Part shown: positions 21,542 to 35,800 of the stretch, one piece after another
How the letters are laid out: every line of letters starts with the position of its first letter
Position numbering within the stretch: position 1 is the first letter of the stretch
Assembly (NCBI GenBank): GCA_015234045.1
Contig: JADFWU010000009.1
Location: 22,234-86,233, forward strand
Source: Magnetococcales bacterium
GTDB taxonomy: Bacteria > Pseudomonadota > Magnetococcia > Magnetococcales > JADFWU01
Length of the DNA: 64,000 bases
Direction: 5' to 3'
Position numbers and translations under genes: made by a program
Notes under the pieces: model-generated
What the model saw: only the letters and a program-made list of their open reading frames with translations
Databases searched by the model: none
Told to the model about the DNA's origin: nothing

Positions 21542-21575
21542 GTGGCTCAATCTGGCGGAGCCACTTCTTTTATTT
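21542..21575 (+). terminator. Possible intrinsic terminator of the kinase-cheR unit
   Basis: Arms GTGGCTC (21542-21548) and GAGCCAC (21558-21564) form a 7-bp stem with a 9-base loop, followed by the T-rich run TTCTTTTATTT. This matches a rho-independent terminator for the plus-strand genes. It overlaps the last codons of the convergent diguanylate cyclase gene. Confidence 0.55.
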
Positions 21576-22749
21576 CTGCACTTGGCGTTTCATCACTATT
21601 CTCTTGTGCTTTCTCTGTTGATTGAAGCAGGTGAAGGTTCATTTCATGATCACAGGCCCAATAACCTGGATTTTTCTTGGATTTGGCCTTGGCGGCATAC
21701 ATCCGCTTATCCGCAGCTTTGACCAGATCATCAGAAGAGATAAAGTCACCTGGACCTGACTGGTGCATACCAAGGCTGAATGAGACAGTATAATCTCCCA
21801 CTTTGGCATCAAAGCACTTGACCAGACGTTGGCACACTTCCAGTGCTTGGATACTGGATGAGCCTGGCAGAATGATGCAAAACTCATCTCCACCATACCG
21901 GCAACTGGAATCCACATCCCGAACAGTAGACAGTAAACATTCGCCAACATGGGCTAATATCTGGTCACCCACCTTGTGGCCATGAGTATCATTGAGCAGT
22001 TTGAAGCCATTGAGGTCAAAATAGACCAGGGTAAGCACTTCGCTACGCCGTTTTCCGAGGGCTAAGTCATTGCGTAGATGGTCGTAGAAAGCGCGTTGGT
22101 TGAGCAGTCCGGTTAAACCATCCTGGCGGGATAGATCTTTCAGTTCCTGAGTACGGCGGGCTACGGTCTGTTCAAGCTCTTCGGCATAGGCTTCCAACTC
22201 CAGTTGAGCGGCTTCTACTTCAGCCAGAAGCGCACCAGTATAGGTCTCAAAAATGAAGTGAACATCAAACATCAATACCTTAAATAAACTGATTTTCCGA
22301 GCCTCTGATTCAAGGCGGGAACACTTGTTATCTCGACACTGATTCTCGAGCAGTCCGTTTAAGATCGCCAATAAACGGTAGACGGCGGACATATAGAGCG
22401 AGGGCGGCACACCGATGCGTTTATGTATCTTACCAACCCGCAGTCGGGTGTTAACATAGAGGGCATCATAAACGCCGCTAAACAGTTCCTGGATATAGCC
22501 ACGCAATGAGCGTTTGAGGCGGAATAACGTTTCAGAATCACCAACAACCAACTGGATTTCAGGATATTGCAATAGCTGTTCGTAGAAGCGCTCAATGATC
22601 AAATCAAGATTGTCATCAATGAATGTTTTAGAGGCTAACATATTGTTCTGATCTTCGCTTGTAATGCCAAACAGTTGTTTGCGGCCAGCAATACGCCGGT
22701 CGGTAAGCTTGAGCTGTTCCGCTAAGGACTGTGTGGTAAGCTGAGTCAT
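21547..22749 (-). CDS. Globin-coupled sensor diguanylate cyclase
   Basis: A cytoplasmic enzyme of about 400 aa making c-di-GMP. Residues of about 15-165 match the globin-coupled sensor fold, with the proximal heme ligand probably H109 in VGKIHKRIGVPPSLYM. A helical linker follows, with AEVEAAQLELEAYAEELEQ, then a GGDEF domain with intact CRYGGDEFCIILPG and an RxxD inhibition site (RDVD) five residues upstream of GGDEF. The likely signal is oxygen or another diatomic gas. The ATG at 22749 is preferred over a TTG five codons earlier. It stands alone, convergent with cheR. The 220-bp region upstream holds two repeats. Confidence 0.92.
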   Translation of the reverse strand: MTQLTTQSLAEQLKLTDRRIAGRKQLFGITSEDQNNMLASKTFIDDNLDLIIERFYEQLLQYPEIQLVVGDSETLFRLKRSLRGYIQELFSGVYDALYVNTRLRVGKIHKRIGVPPSLYMSAVYRLLAILNGLLENQCRDNKCSRLESEARKISLFKVLMFDVHFIFETYTGALLAEVEAAQLELEAYAEELEQTVARRTQELKDLSRQDGLTGLLNQRAFYDHLRNDLALGKRRSEVLTLVYFDLNGFKLLNDTHGHKVGDQILAHVGECLLSTVRDVDSSCRYGGDEFCIILPGSSSIQALEVCQRLVKCFDAKVGDYTVSFSLGMHQSGPGDFISSDDLVKAADKRMYAAKAKSKKNPGYWACDHEMNLHLLQSTEKAQENSDETPSAEIKEVAPPD

Positions 22750-22771
22750 AATCTTTTCTTTCAATTAAGGA

Positions 22772-22984: not shown

Positions 22985-25090
22985 TTAAAAATATAATTCT
23001 CGTAATGTCATCATACGTAGTCGATCCAAAAAGAGTCCAACCAGACTAACAGCCCGCCCTTGAATCACCACAGTGCCACGTGTGAGTTGCTGGGTACTCA
23101 GATGATCGTGCAGTGCAATCTCCACTGTATAAAAACCACCTACCGTGGTCAAAGTGTCATCTGGTCCTGATTGGGTAGGAATAGGACCACCATACAGAGA
23201 GGATAACACAGGATCGGGTAACGTAAGGGAAGGTATTGAAGAGAGGGATAAGATTTTGCCCTTCAATCGTGTGCCAACGCCGCTTTCCGGGTGGAATTGT
23301 GCGGGTTGGTTGATGGCTAGAAGCGGTAAGTCGTTGTCTTCAACCAGTGCTGATAACCGCGCAGCGGATGTGTTGACCAGTAGAAACAGTGGCTGTTCGG
23401 TGGCCATCCATAACCCAGGGCGTAATCCGGGGTCTGCTTCAATCACATTTCCGCTAAAGGGGGCGAAAAGGGTTAAGGTGGCTTGTTGATCTAATAAGCC
23501 ATCCAGAATGGTCTGTTCCTGGGCGATTTTTTGTTCAATGGTCAGGCGTTCCCGCGTGCCGATCAGTGTGGAGAGCGCTTGTTCATGCAGGTGTTGCAGA
23601 ATCTCCAGTCGTCCGCGTGATTGGAGAATTGATGCGGCTAAATCCGGGTCTGAGAAGTGGGCCAGTACAGCCCCTTTTTCGATACTGCCTTGTTCGGCAG
23701 TTTGAAAAAATTCCAACTGGGCCGGGCGAGGTGGATGAATCCATTGACGGTGCAGCGGTGTGATTACAGCAGGCAGATGCACATCATGGGAAAAAGGCCA
23801 TACCAGCCAAACCACTACAGCGAGCATGAATGGCAGTCGCCACCAAAAACCCGGTGAGGTGATGAGCATATGACGGCGTTGCCACCACACTTTTAATTCA
23901 CGCATGACAGGTGCCACGATCAATAGCGTTAAAGAAATAACAAACAGTGCCACTCCGGCAATCTTGGCCAACCAATGATAAACCATCACCGAAAGTCCGG
24001 CATAGATGATTGTCCGCACCATCCAGGTCAACCAGCCAAACAGGGCGAGACTGGTTTGCCAATGGGTGGGCAGTTGTTCCGGTGCAGGCGTTGACCAACC
24101 GAGCAGAGCACGGCGCAGCAGCCAGCGGCCAAAGGCAGAGGCTCTGGTGTGCAGGTTGGTAACACCGGTGAGATCCGATAGGATATGGTAGCCATCAAAG
24201 CGCATGAACGGATTAAGATTGATCAGAAGCGTTGCCAACCAGCTACCCAATGCCAGCATCAGACAGAGATCTCGACTCAGACCATCCGGCAGTATCAACC
24301 AGCCCCAACTGGCCAGCAGTGCCAGCCAGGATTCCGCTACCACACCGCCTAAAGCCACCTGTAACCGCGCCCAACGGTTGGCAAGTCGCCAGCTGTCCGT
24401 TACATCGGTAAACGCCAAAGGTAGCCCCATGGCAAATGCAACGCCCATGCTTGGCACCACACAGCCGGTACGCTTTGCCGCCAGGGCATGCCCCATTTCA
24501 TGGATGATTTTGGAGAAAACTACCGTCACGGAAAATGCAATCATGCCAGAAAAGGTGAAAAAACGCGGCACAGTGGTGATCAGTTCCGCACCATTGTGAA
24601 CCATTATTAATCCGGTCACTGTGCCGAGAAGCAATAGAATTTTGAGTGACAGAGGTGAAAACAGGCCGCCAAACAGCGGTAAGAGTGTCGTGGTGAGCCG
24701 ATCCGGGTTGAAAAGAGGTACGCGAATAAAAAACAGCTTGGACAGTTGAGACGAGAAGGGGCGTGTGGCTCGGCTGGCCTTTTGGGCGTTGGTGCTGTTT
24801 TTTAATAGATTGTTTCGATCCAATAACTGGATCAGATTATCCAGATCGTTACTGTGTATGTGGTGAAAGCCGTCTTGTTTTACTTGATCCAATACCGCAG
24901 AGCGCAGGCCGGTTTTCCAGTAGGAGAGCAGATGGCCAGCCAAAGCGGTAATCTGTAGAAAACGGTGGCCCATGGGATCGTGGATCAGTCCGATCTGTTC
25001 ACCGCCAACCGTGTCACGCCAGCCGAGAAAGCGGATCTCTTGGCGCAGTGGTGGTAATTGATCCTCTTTTTGCCCAGAGTTTCCGGTCAT
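22985..25090 (-). CDS. M50 metalloprotease-like membrane protein fused to HlyD-type arm
   Basis: A 701-aa inner-membrane protein. Residues of about 20-98 resemble a small PqqD/RRE-like winged helix. The M50 (site-2 protease) region follows, with zinc motif HEMGH (H197, E198, H201) in a membrane segment and the distal ligand D299 in NPFMRFDGYH. More TM segments run to about 440, then an HlyD-like periplasmic arm with a coiled hairpin and two half-lipoyl segments (TLFAPFSGNVIEADPG). It is the last of five same-strand genes: surface protein, TolC, adaptor, GAF-adaptor, M50. It may form the inner-membrane base of an export channel, with or without proteolysis. All zinc ligands are present. No ATPase gene lies nearby. 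Confidence 0.88.
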   Translation of the reverse strand: MTGNSGQKEDQLPPLRQEIRFLGWRDTVGGEQIGLIHDPMGHRFLQITALAGHLLSYWKTGLRSAVLDQVKQDGFHHIHSNDLDNLIQLLDRNNLLKNSTNAQKASRATRPFSSQLSKLFFIRVPLFNPDRLTTTLLPLFGGLFSPLSLKILLLLGTVTGLIMVHNGAELITTVPRFFTFSGMIAFSVTVVFSKIIHEMGHALAAKRTGCVVPSMGVAFAMGLPLAFTDVTDSWRLANRWARLQVALGGVVAESWLALLASWGWLILPDGLSRDLCLMLALGSWLATLLINLNPFMRFDGYHILSDLTGVTNLHTRASAFGRWLLRRALLGWSTPAPEQLPTHWQTSLALFGWLTWMVRTIIYAGLSVMVYHWLAKIAGVALFVISLTLLIVAPVMRELKVWWQRRHMLITSPGFWWRLPFMLAVVVWLVWPFSHDVHLPAVITPLHRQWIHPPRPAQLEFFQTAEQGSIEKGAVLAHFSDPDLAASILQSRGRLEILQHLHEQALSTLIGTRERLTIEQKIAQEQTILDGLLDQQATLTLFAPFSGNVIEADPGLRPGLWMATEQPLFLLVNTSAARLSALVEDNDLPLLAINQPAQFHPESGVGTRLKGKILSLSSIPSLTLPDPVLSSLYGGPIPTQSGPDDTLTTVGGFYTVEIALHDHLSTQQLTRGTVVIQGRAVSLVGLFLDRLRMMTLRELYF

Positions 25091-25105
25091 GGTGTGGGTG
25101 CCTCT

Positions 25106-26437
25106 CTACCAGCCGATAAACTGGCGTAGTGTTACCCAAGGACGGCGGAATAGGTAGAACCACAGCCGTACCGGTTCACCGGAAATCCGCGCTGTACCAC
25201 GCGCGCCGATTGGTAGATCATGCGCCTGTTGGTCTATAACGGCCCGATGCCGGTAGGCGGCTTGTCCGGTTGATGTGGCATGTGCTTCCAATCCGCGTTG
25301 AGTCAGTCGAGCGGTGCGGGCGTGGGTTGGGTCCATGTCGGCAAAAAATCGCACTTCGGCCTGATAGTCTACTGGTACCATTTGCTCAACGGGAATCTCC
25401 ACCTCAAGGCGGGTTTTGGTGGGATCTGCCAAGCTCATTAAACGTTGACCGATTGCCACCGGTCGTCCTTCCCAGCCATAACGATCATCGAAGAAAACGA
25501 CACCGGATTCGGTAGCATATAGCTGATGAAGATCCAGGCGTTTTTGTGCATGTTCTACGGCCTGTCGTCTGAGGGCGACTTTTTTTTGCCAAATTACCTG
25601 TCGATCTTTACTGGAGAGATCTTCATAGGCCTGGAAACGCAGCTGTTCAAGCTCTGCCTGTGCCACATCCAGGGCTTTGTTGGCTTGATCCCGCTCTGCC
25701 TGACGTTCGGACGGATCAAAAGTAACCAGCAGTGTGCCCGTTTCTACCTGTTGATAAGGGTGTACATGAAATTGGCGTACCACGCCTTGAAAGGGTGCAG
25801 CAATAATGATGGGCGCTTCCGGCACGATCTCTGCCGTACCAACAGCGGTGAGCGGTAGTTTGATCAGGATAAGTGCCGCGATTGACAGGCCGATCACCGG
25901 CCAACGATAAGAACGTTTAGGCCACCAGCGCGGACGATGGAGTAAAGCGTCCAGGGCATGGCCATAACAGCCTGATACTGTTTCTGCCAGCATCAATTCA
26001 CGTTTCTGCCAAGGGTGTTCCCGCAGCAGAAGCAATGCGCCCAGCGGTTTTTTATTGCGATTGAGCAGTGGAATCCAAACGCCCTGAGTAGGTACAACCC
26101 TATCGGTTAACGGACTATCCGCAGTGGACAGGATGACCGTTTTGATTGTGTTGTCTGAATCGGTGCTACACCAGGGTTTAGCCTGTTCAGTCAGCCATCG
26201 GGTCAGGGGTGCTTCAGGCACCACATGAGGCAGATCACTCACCGCCCATGGTGTGAGCTTTTTGCCTTGAATCCGCCAAAGAATGGCCATCTCATGGTCA
26301 TGAACGCGACGGCTTGCAGTGGTGATATGGTGCGTGAGTTCCGGGACATGCCGAATGGCGCGGATCTCTTGTTCCAGCACCAGCGCGGTGGAGAGTTGCA
26401 CCAAGCGCGGGTCTATATTGTTATCGGTATCACTCAT
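25106..26437 (-). CDS. HlyD-family adaptor with N-terminal GAF-like domain
   Basis: A 443-aa membrane-fusion protein. Residues of about 20-160 look like a cytoplasmic GAF domain (AILWRIQGKKLTPWAV, then GVWIPLLNRNKKPLGALLLL). One TM segment (about 180-198) is followed by a periplasmic lipoyl/coiled-coil/beta-barrel arm (IIAAPFQGVVRQFHVHPYQQ, then TESGVVFFDDRYGWEGRPV). Ordinary HlyD proteins have only a short cytoplasmic N-terminus, so the GAF-like part is unusual and may gate export by a cytoplasmic ligand; this is inference. Its start overlaps the stop of the preceding adaptor (ATGA), and the M50 gene begins 15 bp later, so the three are one operon. Confidence 0.88.
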   Translation of the reverse strand: MSDTDNNIDPRLVQLSTALVLEQEIRAIRHVPELTHHITTASRRVHDHEMAILWRIQGKKLTPWAVSDLPHVVPEAPLTRWLTEQAKPWCSTDSDNTIKTVILSTADSPLTDRVVPTQGVWIPLLNRNKKPLGALLLLREHPWQKRELMLAETVSGCYGHALDALLHRPRWWPKRSYRWPVIGLSIAALILIKLPLTAVGTAEIVPEAPIIIAAPFQGVVRQFHVHPYQQVETGTLLVTFDPSERQAERDQANKALDVAQAELEQLRFQAYEDLSSKDRQVIWQKKVALRRQAVEHAQKRLDLHQLYATESGVVFFDDRYGWEGRPVAIGQRLMSLADPTKTRLEVEIPVEQMVPVDYQAEVRFFADMDPTHARTARLTQRGLEAHATSTGQAAYRHRAVIDQQAHDLPIGARGTARISGEPVRLWFYLFRRPWVTLRQFIGW

Positions 26438-27180
26438 GGTGTGGCTTGATCGGCAAACCGGATTGTACCGCCGAGACCTGGTCTCAGGATCGGACTGTTT
26501 TTGTCCAACATACCGCGAATGGCTACGGTCTGGCTGGACGGATCAACAGCAAGACCGGTGCGAATGATATGGCCGGGTAGTGGTTTTCCGTTCTGGGCTG
26601 GGGAGTGAAAGGTGAATCGGACACCCGGTTTGATCCATGTGAGCCAATGTGTCGGCGCTATAATCACAACTTCAAACTGTGTGTCATCAACCACATGCAA
26701 CAGTGGCGAATGAATATCCACGCTCTCATGGGGTTTGATAAATCGACTGATAACGACACCGGAAAAGGGGGCATGCACAGTACATCGGCGGGTTTTTGCT
26801 TTGGCCAGAGCCACACGTGCTTCACTCTCTGCCCGATCCGCTTCTGCAATGGATAGCTCAATTTTGCCAGCGGAGCCCAATTGATCAAGATGCTGAATAT
26901 GCTTTTGTTTGACCTTCGCCGCATGGGATTGAACAACGGCGATCTGTTGTTCTGCGCGTTGTAGATCACAGGCAAACCTGACCAACAGATCCCCTTTGGA
27001 AAACCGCTCACCCTCTTGTCGGGTCATGCGTGTAATGTGTCCAGCCATTTCAGAGGAGAGTACAGCCTCTTGGGCCGCTTCAATAATGCCTTTGGCAGTG
27101 CGCTCATTGGCCAATAGAGCGGCTGGAGTGATGAGATAAACCGCAACGAGAATGATGATTAGATGGGCTGGTTGATGCAT
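26434..27180 (-). CDS. Periplasmic adaptor (HlyD/AcrA-like), short
   Basis: About 248 aa. A signal peptide (hydrophobic LIIILVAVYLITPAALLA) precedes the mature part, which has a lipoyl half (SSEMAGHITRMTRQEGERFSKG), a coiled-coil hairpin and the second half (VHAPFSGVVISRFIKPHE), then a beta-barrel. It is shorter than typical adaptors and has no TM anchor, so it is periplasmic or weakly membrane-bound. It is probably one part of the bridge between the M50/GAF-HlyD inner-membrane proteins and the TolC channel. A GTG three codons upstream is an alternative start. The 193-bp gap before it, after the TolC gene, could hold a secondary promoter. Confidence 0.82.
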   Translation of the reverse strand: MHQPAHLIIILVAVYLITPAALLANERTAKGIIEAAQEAVLSSEMAGHITRMTRQEGERFSKGDLLVRFACDLQRAEQQIAVVQSHAAKVKQKHIQHLDQLGSAGKIELSIAEADRAESEARVALAKAKTRRCTVHAPFSGVVISRFIKPHESVDIHSPLLHVVDDTQFEVVIIAPTHWLTWIKPGVRFTFHSPAQNGKPLPGHIIRTGLAVDPSSQTVAIRGMLDKNSPILRPGLGGTIRFADQATP

Positions 27181-27373
27181 GTGTAACACTCGGATATATT
27201 TGCGGTGTTTGTCAATATGAAGGCACCATTATAACACCATTTTGGTAGGCGTAACGATAGGATGCTTTCCGTTATGGCGAACAGACATCTTCTCTACCCA
27301 ATCGGGGAACGATGACAGCATTGGTAACAGAGTTGAGGAAATGGGACGGTAATTTGGTTGGGTGATGTGCCCC

Positions 27374-28939
27374 TTACATCCAATACTTGAACGCCCTCAA
27401 AAATACATTGGATGATACCGGCCTGACACCCTGTGTATTTGATTTTCTTTTTGCTTCAAACAGACCGCTCTTGTTCATCAATTGGTGATTGTTCCAGTTG
27501 AGCAGGCGGACCATGTTTTCAACAGTGGCCGGTTCTGGCAGTTCATCCAGCATGCTTTCACCGGAAGAGAAGATTAACCGGCCCAAGGCGTTTTGCACCT
27601 GGCCATATTGATCATCCATTTTCAGGTGTGACAGGATGGCATTCATCTCCAGCTGTAATGACTCCATATCGCCAAAATTTTCTGATTCGGCGCGGGCCTG
27701 TTGGTGATTGAGGATTTTGTTGTTGACCGCGCTTAGTTGGCTTACCGTGGTGAAGCGCTTGCGGGCTTCTTCGTAGTCCAGATAGGCCACATTGACCTGG
27801 GCCAGAATGGCCATGGCCAGGGTTTGGTAGCGCAAAGCGCCTAATTCCGCTTTCATCTCCGCCAATTCCAGATCATCCCATCCGCCGATGAAATTGAGTA
27901 GATTCCAAGAGAGTTTGACACCGGCACTGTTCCAATAGTTGTGCATGAGAAAGTGATTGCTGGTGACGTTGCCGGACATGTTCAACTCAAGGCCGGGCAG
28001 CATGCGCGCTTGGGCTTTGCGGATCTCATCAGCGGAAATGCGCTGATTATAGGCCTCTTCCATCAGTTCTGGACGTTTTTGGAGTGCTCTATCTTCAAGT
28101 TGTTCTCGGGCAATGACCAGCTCTGGTGGAATGTCCATGGGCTTGTCGGGTATGGCCACTTGATAATTCAGTCCAAGAGGCAGGTTCATCAACTTGGCCA
28201 GCTCCAGTTTGGCACCGAGCAGATTGTGACGGATGTCCTGTAACTGGAGCAATTTGTTGTAGAGATCCCGTTTGTAGGTGAGGATTTTTTTCGGTACATC
28301 CAGGCGTGCGCTTTCAATGAGATCCGCAGTGGCCATGGTTTTATGGACCCGCGTCATAATCTCTTCAACACGTGAGAGCAAGCGCTGCGCGGAAACCGCA
28401 CGCCAGTAGGCATCGCGGACATCCTGCATCAGACGGTGTAAAATGCGTTTGCGTCGCTCTTTGGCGATCATCTCTTGATCTGCCATCTGACGGGCGGTGA
28501 AGTAGCTGACACCCAAATCCAGCATATTCCAGGTAAAGCGCAGATCACCGTTGCGTTGGGTGCGGTCATTGGATGTTGTGTAGTCGGTGGACTCTTCGCC
28601 AGTGGTAAGCGATTTACTCACCGAAGCCATGGTGTTGTCACGTGTGGCCACTGAACCATCGACAATGACCTGTGGCAGCAACTTCCAGATACTGGCACCC
28701 ACGCGATTGTGTGCCATCTCCTCTTCTACCATCTTGACACGGGATTCGAAATTATAGAGTAGGGCGCGTGCCATGGCATGATGCATGGTGATGGGCGCGG
28801 TTACCGCTTCTTGACCATCGGTGGCGGATTTGGCTTGCTCAAACAGCTCAATGCGCTCTTCCGGTGTGAGTGGCTTAGGGGTTATCGAACACCCACTCAT
28901 CAAACCAGCCAGAATCATCAACGAAATAAATTTCTTCAT
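27374..28939 (-). CDS. TolC-family outer-membrane lipoprotein (paralogue 2)
   Basis: A 521-aa outer-membrane channel component. The lipoprotein signal ends in LAGLMSGCS. The body carries two helical OEP repeats and aligns along its length with the paralogue at 650-2542 (shared QDVRDAYWRAVSAQRLL and FTWNMLDLGVSYF segments) but lacks that protein's Pro/Thr-rich tail. It lies 46 bp after the surface-protein gene on the same strand and ahead of the two adaptors and M50 protein. It is therefore the likely outer-membrane exit for the exported protein. Confidence 0.9.
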   Translation of the reverse strand: MKKFISLMILAGLMSGCSITPKPLTPEERIELFEQAKSATDGQEAVTAPITMHHAMARALLYNFESRVKMVEEEMAHNRVGASIWKLLPQVIVDGSVATRDNTMASVSKSLTTGEESTDYTTSNDRTQRNGDLRFTWNMLDLGVSYFTARQMADQEMIAKERRKRILHRLMQDVRDAYWRAVSAQRLLSRVEEIMTRVHKTMATADLIESARLDVPKKILTYKRDLYNKLLQLQDIRHNLLGAKLELAKLMNLPLGLNYQVAIPDKPMDIPPELVIAREQLEDRALQKRPELMEEAYNQRISADEIRKAQARMLPGLELNMSGNVTSNHFLMHNYWNSAGVKLSWNLLNFIGGWDDLELAEMKAELGALRYQTLAMAILAQVNVAYLDYEEARKRFTTVSQLSAVNNKILNHQQARAESENFGDMESLQLEMNAILSHLKMDDQYGQVQNALGRLIFSSGESMLDELPEPATVENMVRLLNWNNHQLMNKSGLFEAKRKSNTQGVRPVSSNVFLRAFKYWM

Positions 28940-28985
28940 GGTGCCAACTCCATAGATCCGAAACAGGATCTCAGATCTGTGTCAT

Positions 28986-31900
28986 TCAATCGGTAATCAA
29001 TCCAGCTATGCGTGCTTGACGGGCTTGTGATGCTTCGGCCAGCTGATCGGAAACCGGTGTCAAAAGCGTGTCCGGCGTAATCGTCTCACCCTCTTGTTGA
29101 GTGATCATAGTGTCAAGAAAACGGTCCAACCATGTGTCCGCATCATTTGTTGGTTCACTCTGTTTTGGTGCGTTAACAGGTGTATTTTCTTGATTTTCCT
29201 TGGATTCTTTAGCGTCAAGTGCTTTGTCTTGTTTTTTGTCGGGGTCTTCGTTGCTACTCTGTTCAGGCTCAGAGATGATTTTCTTGATCGGTGCGGCTTT
29301 GTCTGACTCATCAGCCGGTGCCACTTCAACCACAACCGCCACCTCGCGGCCATTGCCGCTTTTGATCTTCAGCAATACCTTGTAGGTTTTGTCATCGTTG
29401 CTTGGACGTTCGCCAGAAGTTTTCAGTAATCCTTCGCCTTCGTTCTCAATCTTCATCCAGAAGGGCAGACCCGATTGAATGGAGATCTGCACCGGATCAC
29501 CACCGGCATCTTTTGCTTTGAGGGTAAAACTCTGGGTCTCGGTTGAACCGGCATCGTCAGAGGCAGTGTTAGAAGCAGCTGTTGTGCTGGAAGTGGATGT
29601 GCTGGCTGTCGTGTTGCTGTTGGTCGTGCTGGCGCTGGCGACCTGTATTTGGAACATGTCCGCGCTTTGTGAACTGGCTGTGCTACCGGAGAAAACCAGA
29701 ACGACAGGCAGTGGTTCAGTATCACTATCCACACCGGACAAGGGGGGTTGCAGACCGGATGTTAATTCCAAAATATCGGGTGGTGTGAGCGCTGGAATGA
29801 TGCTCAATACAACCGGTATTTCCTGATTGCCATCAATCGGCGGAGTGGACACTGGATTGGAAACAGACGATATCTCAGTGCTTACCGGTTCAAACACATC
29901 ATTGACTGTAATGGTCAGTGTTTGGGTGTCAAAAGCGCCGGTGGGATCAGAGACCATCACCTCCAGCACATAGACATTGTCACTGTCCTGATCCAGAGGC
30001 AGTTCCCAATTGGGTGCGGTAATGAATGACAGCAATTGAGAGGTAGGATCAAGATTGAACAGATCGGCATCCGGTCCACCGGTAATTTCATAGGTGAGCG
30101 GATCATCATCAATATCAACAGCGGTCAGTGTCGTGACTGTTTTGGTCGGCTCATCAATGGAAACGGCGACACTGGTACCACCGCCGTTATTGGTTAAATC
30201 CGGTGCGCTGTTACTGCCGGTCACTGTAAGGGATACTTCAGCAGTGTTGGATAGGCCGCCTTCTCCATCGGTAACGGTAAAAGAGACCGTGCGTACTGTC
30301 TCTTCACCGCCGATGATATTGCCGGTCTGATAGGTGATACGACCGATCAGCGCGGACACCGCTTCCTGGCTGGCGTTTTCATTGAGTGTGATCAGCAGAT
30401 CATCACCACCTGTGCCGCCACTCATGGTGCCAATGGCTGTACCGCCATAGCGCACTTCATTATCCGTTCGTCCGATTTCGCCGCTGTTATCCCCTTGTGA
30501 TTCAACCGAGAACGTATCGTATATCGTGCCTGTCGCACCGCCGGAGATAGTGAGAACACCGGTGTTGAATTCCGGGCTGTCCACATCCGATACCGAAGCG
30601 GCAGTGGATTGATCCAGAATCACCGCTGTATCGGCGGTATCGTGGTTCAGAGTGTCGCCATCCAGATCATGGATAATGGGCGGATCATTCACCTCTTGAA
30701 CGGAGATGGTAGAGGTCACCTTGATTGCGTCGGACAGGCCATCATTGACCCGAATTTCGAACAGGCGAACTTGATCTATGGTTGGTGCCTGAGAGTTGTT
30801 TTTATAGCTGATTGTACGTAGGAGTGTTTGGACATCATCCCGGCTCATGGTGCCGCCAGAACCATCTCTGACAACCAGTTTCTGATCCGTGGCTGAAACA
30901 TCCACTTGAAGGGATAATCCATTAGCCGTAACCATGGTTGAGGCATCGGTATCCAATGGAAAATCACCATCGCCCACAACGATGACTTCATCACTGCCAT
31001 CGGGAAGGGAATCGTAGCTGATGGTGAAAGTGCTCAATGTGGAACCAACAGCGCCCAGATAATCCAGATCGTCAATGGTGGCATCGCTGTCGGCCAGGGT
31101 AGCCGGATCACCATCTTCAATGAAGGTGTTGGTGATGTTGCCGTCACCTGCACCGCCCAAGCTGTTATCCGGGTCAAGATCCAGCTCTGGGGCGGTGAAA
31201 ATCGTGGTGGGATCGGTGTAACTTACGGGACTGAAATAGAGTGAAAAATAGCGAAATAAGCCATTGGAGTTGAGTACACCGCTGCGATAGGTGAGTGATT
31301 CGGTATCTTGATAACGCACGGTCAACATGTGCGTGGTGTCATCCAGAGAAAGGGATTCACCGACTGCATCAACGGCTTCAATAGGTGAAATGCGCCCAGG
31401 GATTTCATGCGTAAGTGCGGTATTGTCTTCCAGTGTGTATTCGGTGAACTGGTCGAAGGCCACATATTCCCGTTGACCACTGGAGCCATCCACATCAATG
31501 GATGTGGCAATGAATTGTTCGGCAAGGTGTGTTGGTGTATCAGTATCTGCCAGGACAAAGGTGATGGTGAACTCTATCCAGGAATCTTCGGCACCATCTC
31601 CGCCGATCACCTTGGGTTGAAATGCATTGGCAAATCCGCCGGAAGAAAAGTCCAAAGCGGCCAGTGATGCGCCATTGGCGATTTCATCAATGGATACCAG
31701 CGCATCATATCCGGTTGTGACATCGTCAAAACGGTACACGGCACCCTGTTCGAGGTCTGTCCCTGAAATCAGTGTGTGACCGTCAAAATTGAGATCAACC
31801 TCACCTGAGATCTGATTTGTACCACTACCTACAGCGGTATCAGCCAATAGATATTGGTAGGTGGTCAATGCCTGAATAGCGCTATTGGACAAGGGCGTAA

Positions 31901-32582
31901 CATCACCGGTCTTCTGTTCCAAATCCCAGTCACCATCCTGTGCTGCATTGCCTGTGGCATCCACTGAAGCGGCTACATCAGCGCCGGTGAGATGGGCAAG
32001 GGTCTCCACAAAGGTGATACCGGTGTCACCTTTTGCCACATCACACCCATAGAGAAGAATGTCCGCGTCATTGTTCAGGCTGTTTTGCCATTGGATCAAC
32101 GCCGCTGACGCATGATTCAAAGCGGTGCTATCAATGTGTTGACCACCCAGCGTGAGCACGCCCGGTGCACCATGAGAAACAATGTGAATTTGATCAAATG
32201 GTTCGGATTCAACCAATTGATTGGCAATATCTTCAAGAGGTGTAATACTGTTTGGTAGAATGATGACGTGCGTGTCCGGTGAGAAGCGTTGAGTCAGGCT
32301 GTCAGTATCGCTTACCGAGGCATCAATGATCAGTAATTGGCGGTTTGATTGTGTTTCTGTCTCGGTGATGCCTGCCAGTGTGGTAATACGCTCAGTGATT
32401 TCATTCGTGTGTTGGCTGTTTTCCAGGGTGTCAAAATCTGTTTCAGACGCATCACTCTCGCTGATATCCGTATCAATGAACAGATCAGCCACCAGACTCA
32501 AGGCACCATCGAACATCAAACGCGGCTCAAGAGGCGTAATCTGTATGCTTTTTCCAGCTGGATGGTTGGAATGGGTCATCAC
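28986..32582 (-). CDS. Large surface protein: LEPR motif, DUF4347, cadherin-like repeats
   Basis: A 1198-aa probable cell-surface or secreted protein. The N-terminus has no Sec signal but carries the LEPRLMFDGA motif (residues 18-27) seen in families of giant exported proteins. DUF4347 follows (about 82-245), with HIVSHGAPG (H137) and DILLYGCDVAKGD (C180), a spacing like a clan CD His/Cys pair. The middle is cadherin/beta-sandwich repeats (for example DIDDDPLTYEITGG and VLEVMVSDPTGAFD). A Ser/Thr-rich linker, another Ig-like fold and an acidic tail complete it. No RTX nonapeptides are visible, arguing against a classical type I substrate. The start is GTG at 32582 or ATG at 32579. It heads the five-gene export locus and is probably its cargo. 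Confidence 0.88.
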   Translation of the reverse strand: MMTHSNHPAGKSIQITPLEPRLMFDGALSLVADLFIDTDISESDASETDFDTLENSQHTNEITERITTLAGITETETQSNRQLLIIDASVSDTDSLTQRFSPDTHVIILPNSITPLEDIANQLVESEPFDQIHIVSHGAPGVLTLGGQHIDSTALNHASAALIQWQNSLNNDADILLYGCDVAKGDTGITFVETLAHLTGADVAASVDATGNAAQDGDWDLEQKTGDVTPLSNSAIQALTTYQYLLADTAVGSGTNQISGEVDLNFDGHTLISGTDLEQGAVYRFDDVTTGYDALVSIDEIANGASLAALDFSSGGFANAFQPKVIGGDGAEDSWIEFTITFVLADTDTPTHLAEQFIATSIDVDGSSGQREYVAFDQFTEYTLEDNTALTHEIPGRISPIEAVDAVGESLSLDDTTHMLTVRYQDTESLTYRSGVLNSNGLFRYFSLYFSPVSYTDPTTIFTAPELDLDPDNSLGGAGDGNITNTFIEDGDPATLADSDATIDDLDYLGAVGSTLSTFTISYDSLPDGSDEVIVVGDGDFPLDTDASTMVTANGLSLQVDVSATDQKLVVRDGSGGTMSRDDVQTLLRTISYKNNSQAPTIDQVRLFEIRVNDGLSDAIKVTSTISVQEVNDPPIIHDLDGDTLNHDTADTAVILDQSTAASVSDVDSPEFNTGVLTISGGATGTIYDTFSVESQGDNSGEIGRTDNEVRYGGTAIGTMSGGTGGDDLLITLNENASQEAVSALIGRITYQTGNIIGGEETVRTVSFTVTDGEGGLSNTAEVSLTVTGSNSAPDLTNNGGGTSVAVSIDEPTKTVTTLTAVDIDDDPLTYEITGGPDADLFNLDPTSQLLSFITAPNWELPLDQDSDNVYVLEVMVSDPTGAFDTQTLTITVNDVFEPVSTEISSVSNPVSTPPIDGNQEIPVVLSIIPALTPPDILELTSGLQPPLSGVDSDTEPLPVVLVFSGSTASSQSADMFQIQVASASTTNSNTTASTSTSSTTAASNTASDDAGSTETQSFTLKAKDAGGDPVQISIQSGLPFWMKIENEGEGLLKTSGERPSNDDKTYKVLLKIKSGNGREVAVVVEVAPADESDKAAPIKKIISEPEQSSNEDPDKKQDKALDAKESKENQENTPVNAPKQSEPTNDADTWLDRFLDTMITQQEGETITPDTLLTPVSDQLAEASQARQARIAGLITD

Positions 32583-32850: not shown

Positions 32851-35800
32851 ATGATTGATATGTTAAACGCAAATAGAGTCCGTTTTTATTCATTGATATC
32901 GGTTTTTTTGCTGATTTTGACGTTATTCACGCATGGATTCAGCACGGTCCAAGCGCAAACGGTAGCGCCACAAAAGGCCGACCCTGTTCGGGTTGCCTAT
33001 TGTCTTGACTGTGTTCCTTTCCACTTCCAGGATGGTCAAGGCAAACCAGCCGGTTTGATTATTGATCTATGGAATCTCTTTTCGCAAAAAACCGGCCAGC
33101 CAGTTATTTTTACGCCTTATACCTGGGATGAGACCCTGAAAAAAGTCGCCAGTGGTGAGGCGGATGCCCATGCCGGGCTATTCTTCAATGAAACACGGGA
33201 TAAGTTTCTGGATTATGGGCACTCCCTGAGCCGTACCAGTACTCATGTGTTTCTTTATAAAGCGTTGCCGATTATTTCTGAATTAACCGAAGTCTCTGCC
33301 TATCGGGTCGGTGTGCTCAGTGGAGATTATGTTGAAGGCTTTTTGAAACGGACGTTGCCACCAGAGACCGTGGTGTCCTATCCCAGTTATGAGGCGATTG
33401 TTACGGCTTTGAAATCCGGTCAGTTGCGTGCTTTTGCAGCGGATACACCCACCGGTATCTATCATCTGAAACAGGCGAATCTTCTGCCTGATTTCACCAT
33501 CAGGCCGTCTCAGTTGCTCTATGCCAATGATTGGTTTGTTGCGGTAACAGAAGGTCATTATCAACTTCTGGATCGTCTCAATACGGGATTTGGTCGCATT
33601 TCCAAGGATGAGCGATTACAGATTACCCGCAAATGGACCGCTCGGGGTGATGAAAAAGCCCTGATTATCGCCATGGATCGGGATTATCCGCCACTGACTA
33701 AAATGACCTCTTTTGGTGAGCCTGCCGGGCTATTGGTGGATTTTTGGCGGGCGTGGGCCAAAAAAACCGGCCATGAAGTGCGGTTTCGGATGAGCAATTG
33801 GGCAGACACCATTAAGGCCATGCAGAATGGTGAAGCGGATATTCACTCTGGGCTATTTCTGAATAAGGAACGTCTGGCATTCCTTGAGTATTCAAAACCA
33901 ATCTATCAGATCAATTCCAGCTTTTATTATCGCCGGGACAGTAAGCTACCCGATGATCCAAACCTGTTTGGTCAGCGCCGTATTTCGGTGATGTCAGGCA
34001 GTTATCAGGAAAGCATGCTGCGTCAGAACTATCCCAACCTCAATATTATTTCGTTGCCCTCCTGGCAGATGGTTTTGGAGGTGTTGAAAGAGGCGAAGGT
34101 GGATGCTGCCATCGGTGAAGATCTGACCATGGAAGTGTTGTTAGGCGAACTGGGCTGGAGTGGCGATATTCTCGCTAACCCTGCGCCGCTGTTGTCCAAT
34201 GTGGTTTATGGTGCGGTGCGCAAGGGTGATCACGCATTGTTGGCAAAACTCAACAGTGGGCAGGATGCTTTGAGCCTGAATGAAAAAGCCGCTATGGAGC
34301 GGGTTTGGGTTAGAAATCCGCAACGGCGTGTCTTTGAGGAGAGTGAATCAGTCCGCTCAGGGAAAGCGAAACTCACCATGGAAGAACGGGCTTGGCTGGA
34401 GGCACATCCTGATCTTCGTCTTGGTATTGATCCGGCTTGGCCGCCTTATGATTATTTGGATATGCGAGGAGATCATGCTGGGTTTGCAGCGGATATTCTG
34501 GCTAAAATTAGAAGCAACCTGGGAATAAGTATGGCATTGCAGCCGATCAGTTCCTGGAGTCAGACTTTGGAAGGGGCCAAACAGAGAAATATTGATGTGA
34601 TTTCACTCTGTACGCCAACACTCAAGAGATCAAAATATCTGCTGTTTTCCGATCCCGTTATTACCGTGCCTTGGGTGATTGCAACCCGTCGAGGGTATGA
34701 GTCGCCTCAAGGCGTGAGTTCTTTGCAGGGGAAGCGGGTTTTGGTGGCTGAAGGGTATTCTGTCATTGATGAATTGGCCAAGGTGTTTCCCGATCTGGTC
34801 TACGCCGAAGCGGCAACCGCCTTGGATGCACTGAGAAAGGTGTCATTGGGTCAAGCGGATGCCTATATCGGCTATTTGGGTGCTATCAATCATCTGATTC
34901 AGACAGAAGGACTCTATAATTTGCACGTAGCAGGGCCAACGGGTTTTTCTGCCAAGGAGTTGTCCATCTGTTTGCGGTCAGATTGGCCCGAGTTGTTGAC
35001 CATCATCAACAAGGGACTGGGCACGCTTTCCCGAATGGAGATTCAGGAGATTGCCAACCGATGGGTCTCGGCAGAACAAAGCATGCTCGCTTCGGACTCA
35101 ATAGAACATGTCATCCTATCTGTTGAAGAGCAGCAATGGTTAGCACAACATCCAGAAGTCCGCATTGCTTTTGATGCCAACTTTGGGCCTTATAGTCGCG
35201 CCGTTCCAGAGGCGGGTTTTGCAGGTTATGCCGTTGATGTCGCCCATTTGATTTCTAATAAGACCGGCATAAAATTCACCTATCATCCTGATGGACAATG
35301 GCAAACTCTATATGAAGCGGCTCAACGTCGTGAAGTGGATGTGGTCGCAGAAATGGTGCCGCAGGAGGCGCAGAAAGCGTGGTTTTCTTTTACTGAACCG
35401 TACATTTTTCTCTCCACCTATCTGTTCACCAAAAACAGTGATACACGCATTGAATCACGCGATGATATCGCAGGCATGCGTGTGGCGATGGTTGAGGGGC
35501 ACGCCTATAATGGTGAGATTCTTAAAGCACATCCAGATATTGCCCCTGTTTATGTCAAGACAATTCTGGAAGCTCTGACAACACTTCGTGCAGGTCACGC
35601 GGATGTTTTTGTTGCAGATATTGACGTTGCTAATTATATAAAAAATAAACACGCCATGAATGATCTGCATGCGGCAGTGTTGTGGCAGCAGAACGTGGGC
35701 AACAAGGCTTTTGGTGTGCGTAAGGATTGGCCAGAGCTGGTATCTATTCTAAACAAGGGACTGACAGCCATTTCCAAAAAGGAGTGGTCCACGCTACGCA

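Follow-up and report, generated by a model that had tools for sequence, protein, structure and literature searches.

How giant surface proteins that carry a LEPR motif leave the cell is a question to which a search of the open-access literature gave no answer, even though such proteins are common in environmental bacteria. A locus that bears on this question is found in a Magnetococcales bacterium, in the 64,000-nucleotide stretch of contig JADFWU010000009.1 (assembly GCA_015234045.1) that was analysed here and is referred to as the window. At 22985-32582 on the minus strand, the gene for a DUF4347 protein with a LEPR motif, the presumed cargo, is followed by genes for a TolC-family channel, a short HlyD-type adaptor, an HlyD-type adaptor with a GAF-like domain (GAF-HlyD), and a fusion of an M50 membrane protease with an HlyD-like arm (M50-HlyD). 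A first-pass annotation, made from the sequence alone, had described five same-strand genes with short gaps or overlaps and had proposed that they export the first gene product without an ATP-binding cassette (ABC) transporter. The five co-oriented, tightly packed open reading frames (ORFs) were confirmed; the distances between them, in gene order, are 46 bp, 184 bp, a 4-bp overlap, and 15 bp, which suggests a single operon. We consider it probable that these genes make up a self-contained, TolC-dependent system for protein secretion that operates without an ABC exporter. More tentatively, they may represent a new kind of secretion system, in which a PqqD-M50-HlyD inner-membrane core guides proteins with an N-terminal LEPR leader to TolC. 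One class of these systems (class B) would have a SecA-like motor, and the class to which the window cluster belongs (class A) no dedicated ATPase.

Evidence that these genes belong together comes from their recurrence in other genomes. Among 78 usable M50-HlyD loci, which were gathered by M50 similarity alone and for which neighbours were counted within the DNA available per locus, a GAF-HlyD gene was found nearby in 75, a short HlyD gene in 59, a TolC gene in 49, and a DUF4347/LEPR cargo gene in 46; many of the loci without the full set reached a contig end or carried other repeat proteins of 1-3 thousand residues. These loci span Gammaproteobacteria, Alphaproteobacteria, Nitrospirota, Desulfobacterota, and other groups. 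The same gene set is present in dozens of unrelated genomes, which is far beyond chance. The five genes are also a mobile module. With the cargo gene first, the five-gene unit is carried on plasmids of E. coli, Citrobacter, and Kosakonia, as well as in a few E. coli chromosomes, where it lies beside transposase remnants; among 5,426 complete genomes of E. coli, 24 had a match to the M50 gene. The module is likewise carried by Cupriavidus metallidurans CH34, at around 2.14-2.16 Mb of its megaplasmid, and by plasmid pMSR-1 of Magnetospirillum gryphiswaldense MSR-1. That the unit moves in one piece is further evidence that its parts work together. The co-occurrence of the families, which the first-pass annotation had put forward as a way to check its proposal, was thus observed across phyla as well as on plasmids.

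An ABC exporter was looked for in the window cluster and none was present, in agreement with the initial description of the cluster as ABC-less. No ABC of the type I secretion system (T1SS) kind was found in the operon at any of the 78 loci, with a stand-alone 286-aa ABC subunit upstream as the single same-strand run-on. The module is therefore not a T1SS by definition, though it may work like one. With T1SSs such as HlyB/HlyD/TolC and LapB/LapC/LapE it shares HlyD-type adaptors, a TolC channel, and presumed clients that are very large proteins with repeats of the calcium-binding type; it differs from them in that no ABC exporter is included, in that three different adaptors are encoded, one of which is fused to a PqqD-like-M50 protein and one to GAF, and in that its clients have a common N-terminal motif rather than only a C-terminal one. 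We place the module with HlyD/TolC secretion, as a variant of it, and there is a substantial chance that it merits a separate class. No description of an M50-HlyD/LEPR module was found in the open-access literature; as subscription papers and preprints were outside this search, this is weak evidence of novelty.

The absence of an ABC gene from the cluster raises the possibility of a canonical type I ABC transporter, encoded elsewhere, as the exporter of the LEPR/DUF4347 protein, with the M50-HlyD cluster serving only as a processing or anchoring accessory. LapA-like giant adhesins are clients of LapB-type T1SSs, and the host genome does encode an LssB-type ABC above the model cut-off, at another locus (contig C30) with its own TolC nearby. 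The first-pass annotation had stated that its proposal would fall if a dedicated ABC transporter elsewhere were found to export the protein. The presence of the LssB-type ABC goes halfway towards this, but ABCs of this type are only weakly linked to DUF4347. When 397 genomes of the host phylum were scored for DUF4347, M50-HlyD, and LssB-type ABCs (the latter by TIGR03375, with absence defined as no match at E <= 1e-110), DUF4347 was found, outside the host order, in 36 of 40 genomes with class A M50-HlyD as compared to 23 of the 327 that lack it (odds ratio 119; Fisher p 1e-29); the odds ratio for DUF4347 and LssB above the cut-off was 2.4. Because the genomes are related, this p value should not be read as an exact probability; how far the two odds ratios differ is independent of that relatedness. 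In 27 of the 40 genomes, class A M50-HlyD and DUF4347 were located within 20 kb of each other. Of the 36 genomes outside the order that have both, 10 lacked a TIGR03375 match at the above threshold, under which PrtD-type ABCs could fall. Moreover, a TolC and three adaptors are part of the cluster itself, which travels on plasmids as one unit; no LssB-class ABC was found on the E. coli module plasmid, for which only the plasmid record was searched and gave two weak nucleotide-binding-domain matches. Export through a canonical ABC transporter thus appears rather unlikely.

The protein encoded by the first gene, which had been proposed to be the cargo, is most likely the client of the module. Its initial description as a cadherin-like LEPR/DUF4347 protein stands with regard to DUF4347 (Pfam, 2e-50) and to the motif LEPRLMFDGA, while its cadherin repeat (5.7e-6) fell just below the cut-off. 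The NCBIfam search gave no LEPR-XLL match for this protein, even though the motif is present at residues 18-27; HMMER filters discard short, weak matches. A motif of the form LExR-x-(hydrophobic)2-(D/S)-(A/G/P) was present near the N-terminus in 50 of the 53 DUF4347 cargos whose start is readable, and the remaining three carry the near variants LEQRIAFDA, LERRIAFDA, and LEPRIAFDA. In nearly all cargos the motif can be written as LE(P/S/E)R-x-(L/M)FD(G/A)A. By contrast, it occurs in only 7 of the 1143 other ORFs at these loci, each of them a large or partial LEPR protein encoded next to an M50-HlyD system. This distribution indicates that, as judged from sequence, an N-terminal LEPR-type motif probably marks clients of the M50-HlyD system, whether or not they carry DUF4347. 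Where class A clients have LEPRxMFDGA, class B clients have EPRxLLSA, and one of the latter is annotated by NCBI as LEPR-XLL. For LEPR-XLL proteins, no transport route was found in the open-access literature searched; here their motif is tied to M50-HlyD systems.

At the other end of the cargos, a loose motif, (L/F/V)xxQ(L/M), was found in 12 of 20 cargos (e.g., at 28986-29105 of the window) as compared to 44 of 1162 other ORFs. The enrichment is real, but the motif is too loose to be called a secretion signal, does not correspond to a known T1SS signal, and is missing from the Nitrospira cargos, where several reading frames may be wrong at this end. Two further proteins occupy client-like positions. 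On plasmid pMSR-1 of Magnetospirillum gryphiswaldense (L160 6535-8013), the place of the cargo in the module is taken by a 493-aa ELWxxDGT-repeat protein, which as annotated is without the LEPR motif and ends in a QL-type C-terminal motif. On contig C106 of the host genome (L036 14785-18000), a large protein of repeats such as WNADGSGSW lies beside the fifth M50-HlyD cluster, next to an 882-aa GAF-HlyD and a TolC; it is possibly a client as well, its start lying beyond the stretch examined so that no LEPR motif is visible.

The core of the module would be the M50 fusion, for which the first-pass annotation had named an M50 protease and an HlyD-like arm. Both parts were found by Pfam (M50, 1.4e-8; HlyD_3, 5.4e-7), and a third, an N-terminal PqqD-like domain, had been overlooked. 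In the AlphaFold model of the fusion (mean predicted local distance difference test [pLDDT] score of 85), residues 12-98 adopt a beta3-alpha3 fold, and the profile of this region matches the N-terminus of class B proteins with 97% probability; 11 of 27 class B M50 proteins in turn match Pfam PqqD (best match 1.4e-7), one of them above the gathering score (24.1 vs 23.4), and several relatives are annotated by NCBI as 'PqqD family peptide modification chaperone'. Taken together, these matches and annotations provide good support for a PqqD-like domain of the leader-binding type in the M50-HlyD family, and indirect support for a predicted domain of this type in the window protein. As to the protease, HExxH and the distal Asp of an NxxPxxxxDG-type motif, the hallmarks of site-2 proteases of family M50, are both present, and H197, E198, H201, and D299 are invariant in 80 of 80 relatives, which argues for a working protease.

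These same features raise the possibility that the cluster matures and exports a ribosomally synthesised and post-translationally modified peptide (RiPP), in the manner of daptide or epipeptide systems, and that the large protein is a bystander. The nearest model for the M50 part is that of the daptide intramembrane metalloprotease (NF041824, 8.1e-41), and PqqD-like domains are typical of RiPP enzymes; the window protein and the RiPP M50 metalloproteases of the daptide and YydH-LiaK types (NF041824, NF058609) share a homologous M50 core as well as the leader-recognition logic of PqqD and RiPP recognition element (RRE) domains. However, its score of 140.4 bits is far below the equivalog cut-off of 300, and the window M50 is thus not a daptide protease by this cut-off; it differs further in its extra HlyD arm and in a client that is a large protein rather than a peptide. 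What is conserved beside the M50 fusion is a giant repeat protein rather than a small precursor, and RiPP modifying enzymes were absent from the class B operons examined; this reading was therefore rejected as very unlikely.

The TolC-like lipoprotein of the first-pass annotation was recovered as such (Pfam OEP, 9.3e-23, with the lipobox LMSGC visible in the sequence), and its 'short adaptor' proved to be an adaptor of a defined type, namely an HlyD-type periplasmic adaptor with a signal peptide (HlyD_3, 3.3e-15; HlyD_D23, 2.4e-15; TIGR01730 above cut-off). For GAF-HlyD, the HlyD part was found (HlyD_3, 9.8e-10), and GAF was not significant by Pfam in the window protein itself, though it was in 6 of 41 relatives, as well as in class B relatives (2.6e-23 and 4.1e-10). 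Its AlphaFold model (pLDDT 90.7) has a predicted layout of a cytosolic GAF-like domain, one membrane helix, and a periplasmic adaptor, and a Foldseek search with this model gave only adaptors among the matches listed. The arm of the M50 fusion resembles MacA (Z 16.2 over 217 residues); Foldseek and VIA searches with the whole model listed only this arm, so that they barely probed the M50 and PqqD parts. The resemblance of the adaptor folds to MacA and MexA, along with the dominance of HlyD and TolC families in efflux pumps, would fit an ordinary multidrug or metal efflux assembly located beside a surface protein by chance. However, the cluster encodes no RND, MFS, or ABC pump, the PqqD-like and protease features are conserved, and the association with cargo is strong; an efflux pump was thus rejected as extremely improbable.

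The host genome carries five M50-HlyD genes. On contig C108 (L034 2498-4516), a gene for a 672-aa SecA-like ATPase, the second SecA of this genome, overlaps an M50-HlyD gene of the divergent class B; no such ATPase is encoded in the window cluster. Across 61 relatives, by hand count, 37 of 38 SecA-like paralogs adjoin a class B M50-HlyD gene, with the one exception at a contig end. Class B is also carried on plasmids beyond the host order (Pseudosulfitobacter, Pontibrevibacter, Mesorhizobium, and Methylosinus); on these four alphaproteobacterial plasmids, the gene for a giant protein is followed by DUF3467, one or more GAF- or HlyD-adaptors, PqqD-M50-HlyD, and the SecA-like gene. The giants of 8.8-12.7 thousand residues start with EPRVLLSA, EPRLLLSA, or EPRVLLNA, and one is named LEPR-XLL by NCBI. 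Class B cargos carry the LEPR-XLL form of the motif (LEPRxLLSA), and LEPR-type leaders thus accompany M50-HlyD in both classes. The position of the SecA-like gene suggests that the motor of class B is likely this ATPase, a protein separate from M50. The initial proposal of a role for the M50 protein in the energy step was not supported, its conserved features being those of a protease and of leader binding.

A SecA-like neighbour also fits export in two steps, with the inner membrane crossed via housekeeping Sec (class A) or the SecA-like motor (class B), and with the HlyD/TolC and M50 proteins responsible for transfer from the periplasm to the outside or for signal removal. SecA_DEAD and preprotein-binding domains were kept in 21 of 21 SecA-like proteins, and a site-2 protease, RseP, is described as clearing signal peptides (PMC8144685). 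On the other hand, the wing/scaffold domain, found in housekeeping SecA, was detected in none of the 21, making a standard interaction with SecYEG uncertain, and the cargos are without an evident Sec signal. The maximum hydropathy over the first 80 residues had a median of 1.25 in cargos as compared to 2.06 in signal-bearing short HlyDs, with the window cargo, which has no evident Sec signal peptide, at a value of 1.79 that is not clear-cut. We regard two-step export as unlikely, albeit deserving of some weight. As in accessory Sec (SecA2) systems, large surface proteins would have a SecA-like ATPase of their own in class B, in addition to the first, but class B is Gram-negative and joined to HlyD/TolC and M50, with no wing/scaffold detected and no SecY2 in the loci examined.

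Two side features of class B loci may be mentioned here. A DUF3467 gene of about 100 aa is kept between cargo and adaptors in alphaproteobacterial loci (L242 7770-8051, L240, L244, and L245). A subset (L212, L213, L219, L222, and L224) encodes, as in two-partner secretion (FhaB/FhaC-like), a protein resembling filamentous haemagglutinin together with its probable outer-membrane partner of the POTRA type, as judged by eye; these genes are extra to the HlyD/M50/SecA-like core of class B and are absent from the window.

A secretion route built on the M50-HlyD core, which we favour, might operate as follows. The cargo would be a cytosolic product that bears a LEPR-type leader at its N-terminus. 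PqqD and RRE domains have a peptide-binding role, and the PqqD-like domain of the M50 fusion may bind the leader on the cytosolic side. The M50 core could then remove or trim the leader, gate entry to the conduit, or both, and the HlyD arm of the fusion, GAF-HlyD, and the short HlyD, as suggested by their families, might assemble into a ring of mixed adaptors by which the TolC lipoprotein is opened. A regulatory role may fall to the GAF domain. Transport would likely be driven by the adjacent SecA-like ATPase in class B and, in class A, by proton motive force, by a borrowed motor such as housekeeping SecA, or by folding of the cargo outside the cell acting as a ratchet. Class A does not, as a rule, borrow the class B motor, since several members of the host order (e.g., G016, G020, and G022) have class A M50-HlyD and housekeeping SecA as their sole SecA.

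Several observations weigh against this account. The class A cluster carries no ATPase to account for its energy source. The PqqD link of the window M50 protein is indirect, as the Pfam search gave no direct PqqD match, and a PDB sequence search with the profile of its N-terminus gave none either. The TolC-docking motif RxxxLxxxxxx(S/T) was not enriched in the adaptors (5/66, 9/78, and 10/83). In addition, 19 of 86 DUF4347 genomes had no detected M50-HlyD, so DUF4347 proteins can exist without the system, and three DUF4347/LEPR proteins of the host genome itself (on contigs C25, C28, and C83) are encoded away from M50 genes. Genes for three phage-tail-collar proteins, a GNAT acetyltransferase, and a sulfotransferase precede that of the C25 protein, and in Pseudomonas similar accessory genes stand between M50-HlyD and cargo; this common set suggests that unlinked clients are served by the M50-HlyD system in trans. 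Such tail-collar, GNAT, and sulfotransferase genes recur beside LEPR/DUF4347 proteins in the host genome and in Pseudomonas (L038 5092-9233 and L093 12121-14784), and in Kosakonia three 'tail fiber' genes follow M50-HlyD.

Should this route exist, it would represent a TolC-dependent pathway that dispenses with the ABC exporter, would couple the secretion of proteins of 1,000-12,000 residues to intramembrane proteolysis and PqqD-type leader recognition, and would, in one class, recruit a SecA-like motor. The leader motif provides a search signature for finding client proteins from sequence, and the question of how LEPR-XLL and DUF4347 proteins exit the cell becomes testable genetically. The annotation 'HlyD family periplasmic adaptor', under which the M50 fusion can be listed, conceals a membrane protease. 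Positions of the features of the cluster are given in Table 1.

Table 1. Predicted features of the five-gene cluster, with positions in the window
Feature	Position	Strand	Basis
Cargo candidate, 1198-aa DUF4347/cadherin-like protein	28986..32582	-	Pfam and translation
LEPRLMFDGA motif of cargo (residues 18-27), proposed recognition leader	32502..32531	-	Motif conservation among cargos
TolC-family outer-membrane channel, lipoprotein, 521 aa	27374..28939	-	Pfam OEP; lipobox LMSGC
Short HlyD-type periplasmic adaptor with signal peptide, 251 aa	26434..27189	-	Pfam HlyD_3, HlyD_D23; TIGR01730
GAF-HlyD, 443 aa	25106..26437	-	HlyD_3; GAF in relatives; AlphaFold model
PqqD-like + M50 + HlyD fusion, 701 aa, proposed inner-membrane core	22985..25090	-	Pfam M50, HlyD_3; model
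PqqD-like N-terminal domain of M50 fusion (residues 12-98)	24797..25057	-	Model fold; profile match to class B
HEMGH zinc-protease motif (residues 197-201); partner D299 in NPFMRFDGY	24488..24502	-	Conservation in relatives
Periplasmic HlyD-like arm of M50 fusion (residues 433-690)	23021..23794	-	Foldseek/VIA match to MacA, MexA, EmrA

The cluster is flanked upstream by a gene for a 2713-aa sensor kinase, which starts at 32851 and is in the opposite orientation. The next gene downstream of M50-HlyD, likewise on the minus strand, is a protoglobin-GGDEF gene (21547-22764) that encodes a diguanylate cyclase of the oxygen-sensing type; its product is possibly a regulator of surface display. Finally, another TolC-family gene, of the same subfamily (642 aa), is located at 650-2578 of the window on the minus strand and is followed by a short DUF4347 stretch split across two reading frames (contig C117 22173-22569; L032 4274-4615); the pair appears to be the remnant of a further module copy or a truncated client.

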